This document shows positions 13,069 through 49,990 of a stretch of DNA of 64,000 nt, one piece after another; position 1 is the first letter of the stretch; every line of letters begins with the position of its first letter. The stretch is from assembly GCF_000013045.1 (NCBI RefSeq), contig NC_007677.1:1116001-1180000 (forward strand), given 5' to 3'. The notes beneath the pieces were generated by a model that was not told where the DNA came from, did no database searches, and saw only the letters and a list, made by a program, of their open reading frames with translations. Origin of the DNA: Salinibacter ruber DSM 13855 (GTDB lineage Bacteria > Bacteroidota > Rhodothermia > Rhodothermales > Salinibacteraceae). The position numbers and the translations under genes are program-made.

Positions 13069-14415
13069 ATGGACGTCACGATCGATACCGTCTCGCCCGC
13101 CCGCGTTCACGCCCTCGACCACCTCGAACGGGTGCGCACGGACGACGCCTTCGTCGACAAGCTGACGATTGAGGATGCCGACGCCCGCACCCGCCGGCAG
13201 GCCCGCGAACTGGTGGCGGGGGTCACGCGGCAGCGCCGGTGGCTCGACTTTGTGCTGGGCGAGGCGTACCACGGGGACTACGACTCGATGGAGCACCGGC
13301 TCCAGGAGATCCTGCGGCTCGGGCTCTACGAGCTGCTGTTCCAGTCCACCCCGACCCACGCGGCCGTCGACGAGTACGTGGAGCTCGCCAAGCAGGCGCT
13401 CCGCCCCGGTGCGGGCAACCTCGTCAACGGCGTGCTCCGCACCATCGACCGCGACCGCGAGCACATCCCCACGCCCGACACGGGCGACGACGCGAACGAC
13501 CTCGCCCTTCGCTACTCCCACCCCACCTGGATGGTGCAGCGCTGGCTGGACCGCTTCGGGCTCGACGAGACGACCGAGCTCCTCCGCGCCAACAACCGGC
13601 GGCCCATGTACAGCGTGCGCATCAACCCGCTGCGCACGAGCGAGGCCGACGTGGCGGCGTGGCTCGACGAGCACGACGTGGTGAACGTGGACTCGCCGTA
13701 CCTCGACCGGTACCTGCGCCTGAAGCGCCTCCAGGCCCTCATCGCGGGCGACCTGCTCGACGACGGGCACGTGGCGGTGCAGGACGAGAGCGCCGGCCTC
13801 GTGGTGCAGCTGCTCGACCCCCAGCCCGGCGAGACCCTGATCGACGGCTGCGCGGCGCCGGGCGGCAAGGCGATGCACGCGGCGGCCCGCATGGAGGGGA
13901 CTGGGACGATCTACGCGGTCGACCGCGACGAGCAGCGCCTGGAGCGGGTCGAGACGGCGGCGGAGGCACAGGGCGCGTCCGAGATGGTGGAGGCGGAGAC
14001 GGCCGACCTGCGCGCCTGGGCCGCCCGGCCGGAGCCGCCGCAGGGCGACCGGGTGCTGCTAGACGTGCCGTGCACGGGAATGGGCGTGCTCGCGAAGCGG
14101 GCCGGCCTGCGGTGGCGGCGGTCAATGGAGGACCTGGAGGAGATGGCGGAGCTGCAGGACGAGCTCCTCGACGCGGCGGCCCAACTCGTGCGGCCGGGCG
14201 GGCTCCTGGTCTATAGCACCTGCACCACCGAGCCCGAAGAAAACGAGCGGCGCGTCGAGGCCTTCCTGGCCCGCCACGACGGGTTCGCGGTCGAGTCCGC
14301 GGAGGGCCACGTGCCGGACGAGATGGTCTCGGACGCGGGCTTCCTCGCGACCTTTCCGCACCGCCACCGGATGGACGGGGCGTTTGCGGCCCGCCTGCGA
14401 CGGGACGAGGCCTAG
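13069..14415 (+). CDS. rsmB: 16S rRNA m5C967 methyltransferase (RsmB/Sun)
   Basis: A 448-residue protein with the RsmB two-part layout: an N-terminal NusB-like helical domain (~10-140, LRLGLYELLFQ) that binds RNA, then a Rossmann methyltransferase domain from ~165. The SAM motif is DGCAAPGGKAMHAA. The two family cysteines are present: the PC in LDVPCTGMGVL and the catalytic TC in YSTCTTEPEENERRV. It would use S-adenosylmethionine to make 5-methylcytosine in 16S rRNA. The start at 13069 gives a full-length N-domain. It is 44 bp upstream of the PorV-like gene on the same strand. Confidence 0.88.
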   Translation: MDVTIDTVSPARVHALDHLERVRTDDAFVDKLTIEDADARTRRQARELVAGVTRQRRWLDFVLGEAYHGDYDSMEHRLQEILRLGLYELLFQSTPTHAAVDEYVELAKQALRPGAGNLVNGVLRTIDRDREHIPTPDTGDDANDLALRYSHPTWMVQRWLDRFGLDETTELLRANNRRPMYSVRINPLRTSEADVAAWLDEHDVVNVDSPYLDRYLRLKRLQALIAGDLLDDGHVAVQDESAGLVVQLLDPQPGETLIDGCAAPGGKAMHAAARMEGTGTIYAVDRDEQRLERVETAAEAQGASEMVEAETADLRAWAARPEPPQGDRVLLDVPCTGMGVLAKRAGLRWRRSMEDLEEMAELQDELLDAAAQLVRPGGLLVYSTCTTEPEENERRVEAFLARHDGFAVESAEGHVPDEMVSDAGFLATFPHRHRMDGAFAARLRRDEA

Positions 14416-14459
14416 TCGCGGCGCTCCGTCGGCTCTCTCGCACACCCACGCGCTTCGTC

Positions 14460-15653
14460 ATGCCTCTTCGGCGCCTCGGGCGATCGGTGCTGGGCCTGTT
14501 GCTGCTCGCGGCCCTCGGGGCGGGGCCCGCCCACGGGCAGCGCCTCGCCAAGTACGGGGCCGAGTTTCTGGCGGGCGGCGTGGACGCGCGGGCCCTCGGG
14601 ATGGGCGGCGCGTACGTGGGACTGGCGGACGAGGTGAGCGCGGGGTACTGGAACCCGGCGGGCCTGCACGGCCTGTCCTATCCGGAAATTGGCTACATGC
14701 ACGTGGAGCGCTTCGCGGGGGCCGTGTCGTTCGACTACGGCGGCGTCGCGATGCCGGTGACGGACCGCTCCACGGTCGGCGTGTCGGTCTTTCGGAGCGG
14801 GGTAAACGACATCGTGAACACGCTCGCGGCCTGGAACCCGGACCGGGGCCAGCCGCTGCCCGACTACGAGAGCCGCATCACGCGCTTCTCGGCGGCCGAC
14901 TGGGCCCTCTTCGTGAGCTACAGCCGGGCGGTGAGCGACCGCCTGTCCGTGGGCGTCAACTTCAAAGGGATCCACCGCTCGATCGGCGACTTCGCGAACG
15001 CCTGGGGCTATAGCATGGACGTGGCGGCGCGCTACCGGGCGGGGCCGTACCGGCTCGGGGTCGTGGTCCGCGACGTGACGACCATGCTGCAGAGCTGGAG
15101 CGTCAACCCCTCGGCCTTCGAGGTCAACTGCATCAACCCGATCGACGAGCAGCCCTTCGACGCCTGCCTGAACGAGGACGGGACCCTCATCGAGAACAAC
15201 GCGACGCGCTACCAGGCCGTCTTCGACCAGCGCATCCCACAGGGGGGCACGGCGCTCGTGCTGCCGGTGGCGCGCCTCGGCTCCGGGGCCGTGTGGCCGG
15301 TGGGGGACGGGCACACGCTCACCGTGGGGCTCGACGTGGACGTGGCGGTGGACGGGCGGCGGGCCTTCGTGCCCAACGTTGGCGACGTGTCGTTCCGGCC
15401 GCGGCTGGGACTGGCGTTCCGCTACGCCGGGGTGGTGGAGCTGCGGGGCGGCGTGCAGCGCCTCCAGGTGGGCACTCCCATCGGCGTGGACCTCACGCCG
15501 TCCGTCGGCGCCGGGCTCGACCTGGAGCAGGTGTCGGTCGACTTCAGCTTCGGCGACTTTGCGGGGATCGTGGCGGACGACCTGGGCTACTCCTACCGCA
15601 TCTCGGCCCAGCTCCGCCTCGAACAGCCCGGCCTGGAGCGGCCGGCGGAGTGA
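14460..15653 (+). CDS. PorV/PorQ-family outer-membrane beta-barrel protein
   Basis: A 397-residue exported protein with a signal peptide (cleaved near AHGQ, ~1-26). The mature N-terminus carries the family hallmark GGVDARALGMGGAYVGLADEV followed by YWNPAGL, as in PorV/PorQ and FadL-related barrels of Bacteroidota. The rest is alternating amphipathic strands ending in YRISAQLRL, typical of a barrel C-terminus. PorV acts as a shuttle in type IX secretion, but other members are plain barrels. No secretion genes are adjacent, so the specific role is open. It is convergent with the DUF421 gene. Confidence 0.8.
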   Translation: MPLRRLGRSVLGLLLLAALGAGPAHGQRLAKYGAEFLAGGVDARALGMGGAYVGLADEVSAGYWNPAGLHGLSYPEIGYMHVERFAGAVSFDYGGVAMPVTDRSTVGVSVFRSGVNDIVNTLAAWNPDRGQPLPDYESRITRFSAADWALFVSYSRAVSDRLSVGVNFKGIHRSIGDFANAWGYSMDVAARYRAGPYRLGVVVRDVTTMLQSWSVNPSAFEVNCINPIDEQPFDACLNEDGTLIENNATRYQAVFDQRIPQGGTALVLPVARLGSGAVWPVGDGHTLTVGLDVDVAVDGRRAFVPNVGDVSFRPRLGLAFRYAGVVELRGGVQRLQVGTPIGVDLTPSVGAGLDLEQVSVDFSFGDFAGIVADDLGYSYRISAQLRLEQPGLERPAE

Positions 15654-15728
15654 TGCTGCCCCGATCGCCGCTTTCCGACGGAGAGCCGCCCGGGAACGGA
15701 AGCGGTCCTGAGGGACGAAGAAGGAGCG

Positions 15729-16292
15729 TCAGCCCGTCGGCTCCGCATCGATCAAGGGGGTCAGGCGCTCGGCCCCCCGAACGTCCTCGAAGGCCCACGC
15801 GGAGACCGGCTCGTCCCGGGGGATGACGGAGACATCGCCCGTCGTCTCGAGCACCACGGCCAGCACCTGCGCCGGGTGGGCGATGCCGTGCTGGCGCAGC
15901 TTCGACCGGAGGTCGTCCTCCGTCACGCGTGCGGCGTCGAGGTGGTCGGACAGCACCTCGTCCCCGGCCATGATGAGGAGGGGCTCGTTGTCGACGAGCC
16001 GCTCGACCGGGGCGGCGGCCCGGCGGAGGGTCGAGACGATCCACTGCATGCCGTAGAGCACGGCGAGGCCGGCGGCCCCGACCAACAGCGACGGCTGCTC
16101 CGCGAGCAACGTGGAGGCCACGACGGAGCCGATGGCCACGGTGATCGCGAAGTCGAAGCTCGACATCTTTGAGAAGCTCCGCAGCCCCGTCAGGCGCGTC
16201 AGGACGAGCAACGCCGCGTAGATGCCGATCCCTGTGAGCAGGATCATCGGGAGGGAGGGATCACTGCCGGTCATCCACGTCCAGTCAATCAT
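15729..16292 (-). CDS. DUF421 (YetF-like) membrane protein
   Basis: A 187-residue protein. Three N-terminal membrane helices (~15-33, ~47-64, ~68-86) are followed by the DUF421 cytoplasmic domain. Motifs are LRSFSKMSSFDFAITVAIGS between helices 1 and 2, and LVDNEPLLIMAGDEV with VTEDDLRSKLRQHGI in the soluble part, all characteristic. The family role is not firmly known; members are found in spore and stress contexts in Bacillus. It appears monocistronic; 225 bp of unannotated sequence separates its start from the integron island. Confidence 0.85.
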   Translation of the reverse strand: MIDWTWMTGSDPSLPMILLTGIGIYAALLVLTRLTGLRSFSKMSSFDFAITVAIGSVVASTLLAEQPSLLVGAAGLAVLYGMQWIVSTLRRAAAPVERLVDNEPLLIMAGDEVLSDHLDAARVTEDDLRSKLRQHGIAHPAQVLAVVLETTGDVSVIPRDEPVSAWAFEDVRGAERLTPLIDAEPTG

Positions 16293-16517
16293 TGTACGGG
16301 CGCACTCAAGGAATGGGGAGTGGGCGGAGCAGGGGCGGCCGCAGTTTCAACCGCGGCGACGTGGGGCCCCGTCCCGCGCCTGCAGGGACCCGTCATCGGT
16401 GCCGTCCGGGAGGTGCCATTCGTTGGCGGGCGCACCGATCCCGAGGAGGGAAAATCACAGCAGACGTAAGGGATCCGACGGGACATTGGGGGATGCGAGC
16501 CTGCGGGCGTTCGGTCG

Positions 16518-16705
16518 CGATAACGGACTCTTCACCTGACCCGGGCGAGCATATCGATCAGCCGAACTCATAGAGTCTGAATGACTTCGATCGGCAGAAT
16601 TTCCGCTCTTTCTCGTCGTCGCTTCCGCACGGCAGAAGCAAACCGGACTACCTGTGCCGATTGAAAACGGCAGCAGCCCGGGTTCAGATGCAAGGCGTGT
16701 TATGT
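16518..16705 (-). repeat. attC-like site of cassette 2
   Basis: The outer ends are CGATAAC (16518-16524) and GTTATGT (16699-16705), matching in ATAAC. Inner arms TCACCTGACCCGGGCGAG (16532-16549) and CAGCAGCCCGGGTTCAGATG (16671-16690) are imperfectly complementary, as in the L''/L' arms of attC. It follows the stop codon of the cassette 2 gene and ends the array. It shares an 18-base identical block and two further blocks (CGGCAGCAGCCCG and CGTGTTATGTGC) with the site at 17291-17477, at near-identical spacing. Confidence 0.65.
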
Positions 16706-16759
16706 GCTCTCCTCCGAGACCTTGGTGTAATGAGAGCAAGGGTTATGGTCCTTCCCGCC

Positions 16760-17272
16760 TCAATCAAGCTCTTCGTAACCATTCACGACGAATACCCAAT
16801 TGGAATCGCCGTTTTTTGCCGAAGCCCCCACGAACTGTACGTATAGCTCCAAAAGTCCCCCTTTCGGCCATTTGTTCTTCAGAAACGGCACCAGTTTGCT
16901 CTGAACGGGCAACCAGTACGATCCTTCTTCCCCAATGAAGAGAACCTCATTGTCGAAAAGCTCCTTTACCGGCGCATCAATGCTACGGGCCTCCGCCCAA
17001 CTCTGTATTAGGCGTTCGGTAGTCGATGATATAGAGCGAATCTCTCCCCCGTATTCTAACTTCGTGCGGAGGGGAAACCGCCTGGAAATAGTCAGGAGCT
17101 TCGTGCTTCCGGAGGTGTCCGGAAGCTTGTTGGGCAAATGACTGTGGTTCTGAATCACTGTATCCAACCGAGCGGGTCGATATCTATCCCATGTGGATTG
17201 AGCCTCCAGAGTCGGTACGCATGTCGAGAGTAATACAGTCAAAAGCGAAATGGAAATGGATATCCGTATCAT
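16760..17272 (-). CDS. Cassette 2: secreted hypothetical protein
   Basis: A 170-residue protein I do not recognise. A signal peptide spans ~1-25 (hydrophobic SISISLLTVLL, likely cleavage after LEAQ); a cysteine at 18 is not in a standard lipobox. The mature part is mixed alpha/beta, ends in a strand-like NWVFVVNGYEELD and has no catalytic motif I can identify. The ATG lies ~19 bases inside the G^TTATGT junction, as expected for a cassette gene, and the stop is followed by the attC-like site. Codon use is more AT-rich than the chromosome on either side, which suggests acquisition. Confidence 0.7.
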   Translation of the reverse strand: MIRISISISLLTVLLSTCVPTLEAQSTWDRYRPARLDTVIQNHSHLPNKLPDTSGSTKLLTISRRFPLRTKLEYGGEIRSISSTTERLIQSWAEARSIDAPVKELFDNEVLFIGEEGSYWLPVQSKLVPFLKNKWPKGGLLELYVQFVGASAKNGDSNWVFVVNGYEELD

Positions 17273-17290
17273 GGGGTAATGATCGAGTGG

Positions 17291-17477
17291 ACATAACGAG
17301 AAAACTCACCTGACCCGGGCGAGGTATCGTTCGGTCGAAACCGGTGCCCTTCGAACTGAAACGTACGACGAAATACTCATCCGATCGCGTCATCACTATC
17401 GGTTAGCGAAGCCGAAGTGGCTTACCTGAGCCGCAAAAAAGCGGCAGCAGCCCGAAGGTGTAGCGGACGTGTTATGT
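17291..17477 (-). repeat. attC-like site of cassette 1
   Basis: The perfect outer inverted heptamers are ACATAAC (17291-17297) and GTTATGT (17471-17477). The inner arm TCACCTGACCCGGGCGAG (17306-17323) pairs imperfectly with the segment near GCAGCCCGAAGGTGTAG (17446-17462). A central hairpin (GCCGC, six As, GCGGC, 17430-17445) is also present. At 187 bp it is longer than most described attC sites but matches its partner at 16518-16705 in length and block order. The cassette 2 gene starts just beyond its 17291 end on the minus strand. Confidence 0.7.
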
Positions 17478-17496
17478 GCCTGGATTGAGGGTTTGG

Positions 17497-18468
17497 TTAG
17501 GGGGTTCTCTTCGATACATTTTTGATAATATCCGCAACGTTGGTCGAGAATGAAGACTGTTGGCCGCTATTATCTGGCTTGAAGCCAGTCTGTTGTGGAG
17601 AGAATATTGACTCGGTGGTTCTGAGGAGCACCGCGTTCTTTACTGCTGGCTCGTCGGTTGTTTTGGTGAATACCTCAAATGTCATTAGAGCATTATACCT
17701 GTGCCGGTTTACAACATAATTATGGCGTTCAGACCGATATGTCCTCGCAGAAGTAACGAGCCCAAAGAAAAGTAGGGAGAATATTGCGATCCGAGTAATC
17801 GCAAGCCTGGCGACTATCCACATAGGACGCTCTTGTATCGTAGAGCTTGCTTCTGCTATACCCGTGTATCCAAAAATTAAGAATAGTGCGTAAACAACTA
17901 CCAGTACAGCAAATGTAATAGATACACCTAAAGCGTATACGCTATACCACCAGTGTTTATTTGCCTCGTCTGAAAAATATTGTGCCCTTTCATTAACTGC
18001 ACCAGCCTGAGCTGACTCCTTCAGCTTTTCCTCAATTTCGCCAACTTATTTTTTTGTGTCAGAAACGCTATCTAGTAGATTTTTAGCTTCAGACTCTAAC
18101 TTCTTTATTCTTTCTATGTGCTGGTGTGCAGTATCACTTCCAGCTGTCGCAAGTATAATTCCTGACGCCTCGAACACCTTTCCCATCCCCTCCTGCAGAT
18201 TTCTTTGACCTCTTGGTAAGTCGCCTGATCCCCTGTTCAGGCTCTCTAGGGCATCATATATCGATTTGGCCCCATCTTTGACCTGTTTACCTGTCTTACC
18301 ACTAACTGTACGAAAGTCTACTTCGTTGTCCATCCTTTGGCATAGCTGGACTATCTTCTTCAACCTTGTCATGTTTGTTGGAGTAAGCCCGAAATCTGCT
18401 CCATCCTCGAGTATTTCATCTTGTTGGAGGTTACTCAACTTTTGAATTGCGTCGGGTGTTTTCGACAT
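17497..18468 (-). pseudogene. Cassette 1: two-helix membrane protein interrupted by one in-frame stop
   Basis: Read from the ATG at 18468, a 140-residue helical, coiled-coil-like domain runs to a TAA at 18048-18046, next to a seven-A tract. The same frame then continues without break to 17497. It gives more coiled coil (VGEIEEKLKESAQ), two membrane helices (around WWYSVYALGVSITFAVLVVV and WIVARLAITRIAIFSLLFF) and a ~75-residue C-terminal domain containing SIFSPQQTGF. Without the stop it is one 323-residue protein. The seamless coiled coil across the stop argues for a recent nonsense change; a short N-terminal product may still be made. I cannot assign a family. Confidence 0.65.
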
Positions 18469-18522
18469 ATTAAGTTAGTATACTATGAATACTAGGAGCA
18501 CCGGATCGACACTGAGACGCAC

Positions 18523-18529
18523 ACATAAC
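18523..18529 (-). other. Putative attI/first-cassette junction (GTTATGT core)
   Basis: The heptamer GTTATGT on the minus strand is identical to the core at both attC-like sites. It lies between the recombinase start and the first cassette gene, 55 bases upstream of that gene's ATG: exactly where an attI x attC junction is expected. A single heptamer is weak evidence alone; position makes it credible. Confidence 0.5.
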
Positions 18530-18617
18530 CCCTGATTATATCAGAGCACTCAACATATCCACGCACTCGTTTCGTAACCCCGTGGAACCAACGCAGTTGG
18601 GCGAACAGGACTGTTCA

Positions 18618-18665
18618 TATGTCAAGCAGGTTCGATTCACGGAATATCGCCTACCGCTTGACATA
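18618..18665. promoter_or_regulatory. 10-bp perfect inverted repeat in the presumed attI/promoter region
   Basis: TATGTCAAGC (18618-18627) and GCTTGACATA (18656-18665) are exact reverse complements separated by 28 bp, ~60 bp upstream of the recombinase ATG. Each arm contains TTGACA, outward or inward according to strand, resembling a -35 hexamer facing each way. No good -10 partner is visible for either. It could be an operator, an integrase accessory site or divergent promoters. Confidence 0.4.
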
Positions 18666-18726
18666 CTCGATATTGGCAATCTTACTTTCAAGCCATACGT
18701 CGTGTCGGAGCCAACTGCCGGTCGCC

Positions 18727-19658
18727 ATGCCCGATGCCCCAGACCAGTCGCCCAAACTCCTCGATCAGGTGCGGCAGACCTGCCGGCGCCGCCAGTACGG
18801 CTACCACACGGAAAAAGCGTACGTCCGCTGGGCCGAACGCTTCGCCTGCTTCCACGACACCACCCATCCCCGCCACCTCAACGAGGACGACATTCGCGCC
18901 TTCTTAGGTCACCTCGCGTCGGAGCGCAACGTGGCCGCCTCCACGCAGAACCAGGCCCTCAACGCCCTGACCGAACGAACGTGAGGGCGGAAGTGGTTTT
19001 AGACCGCGCCCTGATCTTCCTCTACGAACAGGTGCTTGAAATTGAGCTGGACGACATTGGACCGCTCGACCGCGCCGACCGCCCCAAACGCCTCCCCACG
19101 GTGCTCTCGCGCGAGGAGGTCCATCGCCTGTTCGACGCCATGTCGACGGGTCCGAATCGCCTGATCGCGCATCTTCTCTACGGCAGCGGCCTCCGGCTGT
19201 CCGAAGCCCTTCGCCTCCGGGTTAAAGAACTCGACGTTGGAACCAGCCGCCTCCACGTCCGGGACGGCGTGGGCGGCGTCTCCCTGCCGGATGCCATTGC
19301 AGAGAAGTATCCGAATGCAAAAACCGAGTGGCGCTGGCAGTACGTGTTTCCCCCCACGACCCTCTCGGAAGACCCGCGCAGCGGGGCGGCCCGCCGCCAC
19401 CACCGCTCCGACTCGGCCGTGCAGCGGGCCGTCAAGAAGGCCGCCGACGCGACCGACATCGAGAAGCGGGCCACCTGCCATACCCTTCGTCACTCGTTCG
19501 CCACGCACCTGCTGCAGGACGGCACCGATGTCCGGACCATTCAGCGGCTCCTGGGCCACGAGCAGCTGCGCACCACCATGCAGTACGTCCACGTCCTGGA
19601 GCAAAGCGGCGACGGCGTCACCAGCCCCCTCGACACGTTGCCCAAGGACTCAGCATAG
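18727..19658 (+). pseudogene. intI: Integron-type tyrosine recombinase (IntI-like), doubly disrupted
   Basis: The N-terminal SAM-like core-binding domain ([27 protein letters not shown]) and the catalytic domain are recognisable. The region [23 protein letters not shown]...DPRSG..RRHH is the extra segment that separates IntI from XerC/D. Catalytic Arg ([11 protein letters not shown]), [17 protein letters not shown] and the Tyr in MQYVHV remain. Two lesions disable it: a 44 bp insertion at 18971-19014 shifts the frame and causes a TGA at 18982, and ~35 residues with the KxxKDR beta-hairpin lysine are missing in frame after VRDG (near 19266). Start ATG 18727 begins MPDAPDQSP. Confidence 0.85.
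18971..19014. other. 44-bp insertion in the recombinase flanked by 7-bp direct repeats
   Basis: GCCCTGA occurs at 18964-18970 and again at 19008-19014. Removing one copy with the intervening 37 bp restores the frame as [15 protein letters not shown], matching the family (NALLFLYREVL). The 37 bp has no clear inverted ends. It looks like a small insertion or the footprint of an excised element with a 7 bp target duplication. Confidence 0.75.
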
Positions 19659-49695: not shown

Positions 49696-49990
49696 GGTCT
49701 GGGGGGTCGGTACGTGACGAGAGGGTTGCGAGTAGTGTTGGGTACGCCTCCCTGAACGCATCGCGCGGGCCGGCGACGGGTTCCTGTCTCCCCGTCGAAG
49801 ATTGTGCGAGTCGCCTCAAAGGGGATAGGCGTTCTTTTCGGAAAGCGGCCTAGAAACCGAAAACACCGCGGTCCGTTCCTCACCGCCAAGACACATTTTT
49901 CCCTCCGCCCCGGACGGGCGGGCTGCTCGGCGGCACGGCCGAATCGGCCTGTCCCATCCTTCATTTGGTGCTTGGCAGAAGAAAGGTGTT

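Follow-up and report, generated by a model that had tools for sequence, protein, structure and literature searches.

Organization of the integron adjoining ligA

Positions 16518-19658 of the window (the whole 64-kb stretch that was analysed, C1:1116001-1180000 of Salinibacter ruber DSM 13855) carry a degenerate integron, composed of an intI pseudogene, an attI-like site and two cassettes that each have their attC (Table 1). Along the minus strand, the attI heptamer (18529-18523) is followed by cassette 1 with attC1 (ending at 17291), cassette 2 with attC2 (ending at 16518) and a conserved flank; the cassettes read away from intI and contain one gene per attC. The array is AT-rich, as originally noticed, with a GC content of 48% versus 69-72% in the flanks. 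The original prediction of a decayed integron with two cassettes is backed by the family of the integrase, the attC model, the attI boundary, the layout and the lack of these cassettes in relatives.

Table 1. Features of the integron (window positions) and integron remnants of the whole genome (chromosome positions; G000 is the present genome)
Feature	Position	Strand	Basis
attC2, 188 bp, terminal site of the array, with GTTATCG as R'	16518..16705	-	R1 85.0 bits, E 6.7e-24
Cassette 2 including attC	16518..17297	-	heptamer boundaries
Gene of cassette 2, encoding 170 aa with a hydrophobic N-terminus	16760..17272	-	
attC1, 187 bp	17291..17477	-	R1 109.4 bits, E 5.2e-31; fold
Cassette 1 including attC	17291..18529	-	GTTATGT at both boundaries
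Cassette 1 gene, one ~323-codon frame, pseudogene	17497..18468	-	translation
attI region and intI leader	18523..18726		conservation in five further Salinibacter integrons
Crossover heptamer, GTTATGT on the minus strand	18523-18529	-	position-based attI
Candidate Pc (cassette promoter) of the extended -10 type, TGATATAAT, directed into the cassettes	18535..18543	-	sequence inspection
intI pseudogene	18727..19658	+	TIGR02249, tblastn of intact relatives, alignment with ten other copies
intI core-binding domain, in one frame	18727-18969	+	
44-bp insertion flanked by CGCCCTG direct repeats	18970..19013	+	alignment
intI catalytic domain, in another frame	19014-19658	+	
Junction of in-frame 108-bp deletion, GKGGKDR loop gone	19260..19270	+	tblastn, alignment
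Remnant at 77-83 kb: insert-bearing intI and three to four attCs	G000:C1:77754-82764		
Remnant at 1132-1136 kb, the window integron: intI pseudogene, two attCs			
Remnant at 2334-2337 kb: insert-bearing intI stub and one attC	G000:C1:2334181-2337100		
Cluster at 2389-2390 kb: two attCs, no intI	G000:C1:2389390-2390452		
Remnant at 2983-2988 kb: intI fragment, three attCs	G000:C1:2983081-2987718		

The integrase pseudogene

Both frames of intI match TIGR02249 ('integron integrase'), for which the C-terminal ORF on its own reaches 270.4 bits (cut-off, 265); this confirms the IntI-type recombinase remnant proposed on the plus strand. The additional segment specific to IntI (23 residues) is present and aligns with intact relatives. 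In tblastn comparisons, identity with these relatives is 87% in the 71 N-terminal residues and 73-78% in the remainder, and both tblastn and the alignment reveal a gap of about 36 residues that includes the GKGGKDR loop. From general knowledge of tyrosine recombinases, we take this loop to carry the catalytic lysine. The N-terminal frame is stopped by the 44-bp insert at a TGA (within GTGA, 18981-18984). As judged from its sequence, intI is not intact, and the integron is classed as degenerate because of this 44-bp frameshift insertion and the deletion of GKGGKDR. Intact IntI homologues of 307-316 residues are encoded by at least seven Salinibacter genomes, and intI genes also occur in other genera of the same family.

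The attI region and the candidate promoter

When six integrons are aligned, conservation extends from the heptamer (ATAAC) in the direction of intI, with no relationship between the sequences of the cassette side. From this position, attI probably lies beside intI and the cassettes would have been inserted exactly at the core heptamer. The motif TGATATAAT, present in four out of five further attI regions of the alignment, is a candidate Pc; a consensus scan retrieved no full -35/-10 promoter. An inverted repeat upstream of intI (TATGTCAAGC ... GCTTGACATA, 18630-18680), part of which is retained by other Salinibacter integrons, might serve as an operator for the intI promoter.

The attC sites

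Paired heptamers were scanned for directly in up to 20 kb of sequence beside other Salinibacter intI genes, which gave attC-like sites of two length classes (about 113-132 bp and 187-194 bp) that are mixed inside single arrays (L045, L049, L050, L055 and others). A covariance model, R1, was built from 13 long sites of other Salinibacter genomes, none of them from the present genome, and it matches both sites of the window; the next match in the window has an E-value of 0.7. In the whole genome, R1 retrieves 11 attCs at E < 1e-5, after which E jumps to at least 0.04. The comparative model was preferred because folding of single attCs gives a weak signal against shuffles (z from -0.9 to -2.4). 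Within the attC arms, 91.5% of cells are paired and 17 of 28 pairs are changed on both sides, the structure having been derived from the same alignment. Pairing at this level is reached by none of 500 shuffles and falls to 33-41% once the partners are shifted by 1-3 columns.

The window sites display the R''/L''/L'/R' pairing and the GTT core. The heptamers were found where they had been described (ACATAAC at 17291 and 18523, GTTATGT at 16699 and 17471), with a single further copy in the 64 kb, at 49988. Sites of about 188 bp with GTTATGT/ACATAAC ends had been proposed; this description holds for attC1 but not for the outer end of attC2, which is CGATAAC instead of ACATAAC. Such an end is expected of the attC that closes an array, and the terminal arm of attC2 and the flank beyond it are common to both orthologous loci. 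In attC1, R'' and R' pair over 7/7 positions and L'' is shortened by 4 nt in the fold. The activity of the two sites is uncertain since attC1 would be affected by this loss and attC2 lies at the array end.

The cassettes

The gene of cassette 1 (18468 to 17497) is a single frame interrupted by one in-frame TAA (18046-18048); its reading as two genes (18046-18468 and 17497-17823) was therefore rejected. Its C-terminal part looks membrane-bound from its predicted sequence, shares 35% identity (residues 7-175) with a 346-aa ORF from another genome of the phylum and has a 29% relative on a Vibrio plasmid, while the N-terminal part has no significant match to the 346-aa ORF. The cassette 2 protein has no relative in the searched sequence, genus included. 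Neither cassette protein scores above the cut-off for any Pfam or NCBIfam family, and neither cassette was found in the 12 other Salinibacter genomes.

A resident platform in Salinibacter

The DUF421-like gene and ligA, between which the integron sits, are kept in two other Salinibacter species. The flanks (left, 14000-16500; right, the ligA side) share about 92% identity with those of one of them (G002) and 89-95% with those of the other (G005). The ligA locus of G002 (C1:892802-903337) has the same flanks, attI and attC class as the window integron; it differs by an intact intI devoid of the insert, 11 attCs and other cassettes. That of G005 has a decayed intI and 2 attCs, and the cassettes differ at each of the three ligA loci. 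Since the same flanks enclose the platform in two other species, one of them with an intact intI, it is inherited rather than acquired as an array, contrary to what had been proposed. On this comparative evidence, the platform is resident and only the cassettes, its variable load, are foreign. The locus is thus best described as a sedentary chromosomal integron adjoining ligA, resident in at least three Salinibacter species and decayed in the present strain (probability of about 0.95).

Two other readings of the locus are far less probable. An unrelated tyrosine recombinase lying beside chance repeats has nothing in its favour except that recombinases of this type are generally abundant in this genome; it is refuted by the TIGR02249 score, above the cut-off, and by the E-values of the attC model (5.2e-31 and 6.7e-24), so that its probability is practically nil. 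Recent acquisition of the whole integron as one unit by horizontal transfer would agree with an AT-rich array inside a GC-rich chromosome. However, the nearest relative of intI is, depending on the stretch, either the G002 orthologue or a paralogue from the same genome, and flanks of about 92% and 89-95% identity each enclose an integron in two species, which makes such a transfer most improbable.

Proposed history of the locus and mobility of its cassettes

Recombination of a folded single-stranded attC with attI by IntI is established for integrons. Combined with the data on the locus, the following history can be proposed. Circular cassettes would have been captured by a working IntI through recombination between their attC, folded as a single strand, and the attI site (18523-18529), with every newcomer placed beside attI and read away from intI. 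IntI is now dead, owing to the 44-bp frameshifting insertion and to the 108-bp deletion of the catalytic-lysine loop. The two remaining cassettes, the first of which also has a nonsense codon, would have been left stranded.

Stranding is the most likely state of the two cassettes, as the rest of the genome yielded no intact intI, and a loss of mobility is what we infer from it. In such a genome, the original prediction that breakage of the integrase would have fixed the array is reasonable. The cassettes might still be mobile if an IntI that recognizes their attCs were supplied in trans by a plasmid, a phage, another element or another strain: attC1 retains full R''/R' pairing and intact intI genes occur throughout the genus. 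This remains unlikely given that the genome has no intact intI, that L'' of attC1 is shortened and that cassette 1 has decayed.

The 44-bp insertion in intI

The insert is found at the identical intI codon in four further places, spread over three genomes including the present one (G000:C1:78495-78530, G000:C1:2337047-2337082, G005:C1:3040153-3040188 and G012:C63:245-280). ACGTGAGGG is kept in 5/5 copies. The insert has no copy beyond these intI sites among 114 genomes of the order and none in viral contigs, and the insert region has no match in plasmids, which rules out a dispersed repeat.

Insert-bearing copies fall in three well-separated intI lineages, between which the insert is 89-93% identical. 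On the intI tree, the four copies that could be placed need at least three label changes, forced by well-supported branches, and a single origin of the insert is thus rejected as the simplest reading. Between G012 and the other copies, the insert is 91-93% identical, for mostly 62-77% in the sequence 50 bp or more outward. The window and 77-kb intI are identical over their first part, insert included, and diverge after it; in the 180 bp that follow the shared stretch, the window intI is closer to G002 than to the 77-kb copy. This pattern points to conversion between intI paralogues. Short-tract gene conversion is the likely cause of the spread of the insert, repeated insertion and precise loss being the alternatives.

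The occurrence of the insert at one codon position in three intI lineages, at 89-93% identity even where, as for the G012 copy, the genes around it share as little as 62-74%, and in no other place in the order, could also suggest a recurrent, site-specific off-switch of Salinibacter integron integrases. The 7-bp direct repeats around it would allow a precise loss that restores intI. Such a switch is nevertheless improbable, and the duller alternative, short-tract gene conversion among intI pseudogenes, is the likely one. It is even more doubtful that insert-bearing genes are alive but split, encoding a two-subunit integrase whose DNA-binding half ends at the TGA and whose catalytic half starts at the overlapping GTG (GTGA). 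Conservation of ACGTGAGGG in all five copies and frames that remain open on either side of the insert in the 77-kb copy would be consistent with it. Compared pairwise across species, the intI copies of the window, of the 77-kb locus and of G005 have a dN/dS of 0.14-0.16, which resembles the 0.08-0.14 of intact pairs, but this ratio mostly reflects the time preceding insertion and is uninformative as a test of function. Furthermore, every insert copy is damaged elsewhere: the window gene lacks the catalytic loop, those of G005 and G012 carry a 1-bp deletion and a large deletion, respectively, the 2337-kb copy is nearly all lost, and the 77-kb copy has R-to-W, L-to-R and G-to-A changes at positions kept in other copies.

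Comparison with known integrons

The genome (a 3,551,823-bp chromosome and a 35,505-bp plasmid) harbours no intact intI, and nine attCs were added to the two of the window. These 11 attCs group into five clusters, and intI remnants accompany four of these (Table 1). The original prediction knew of no integron description for such organisms, a statement that is outdated since a complete integron was reported in S. ruber M1 using IntegronFinder 2.0 (PMC9024848). The latter belongs to the same species and likewise has an IntI and attC sites; it is described as complete, whereas intI at the present ligA locus is a pseudogene. For the type strain, a RAST count of zero was given for the phage/prophage/transposase category, home of the RAST integron subsystem (PMC5609423), and the main text of a search for integrons across 104 halophile genomes does not mention Salinibacter (PMC7923331).

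Nearly a third of the intI genes were pseudogenes in one survey (PMC2426708). The ligA integron resembles the sedentary chromosomal integrons with intI pseudogenes of this survey by its resident platform and decayed integrase; it differs from them by its host lineage and by the long attC class (187-194 bp) mixed with that of 113-132 bp. It is also functionally similar to CALIN elements, attC clusters without integrase, in having attC sites but no working integrase; unlike them, it still has a recognizable intI remnant and attI. The ligA integron of S. ruber is of a common type, its locus is new, and its integrase has a single oddity, the 44-bp insert.

Significance for Salinibacter

As attC sites are present in 13/13 Salinibacter genomes, integrons are a standing part of these genomes. 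The five remnants without any working integrase in the present genome, set against the intact version of a sister species, provide a natural series for the decay of sedentary integrons. The cassettes are a small pool of uncharacterised genes from a hypersaline habitat.
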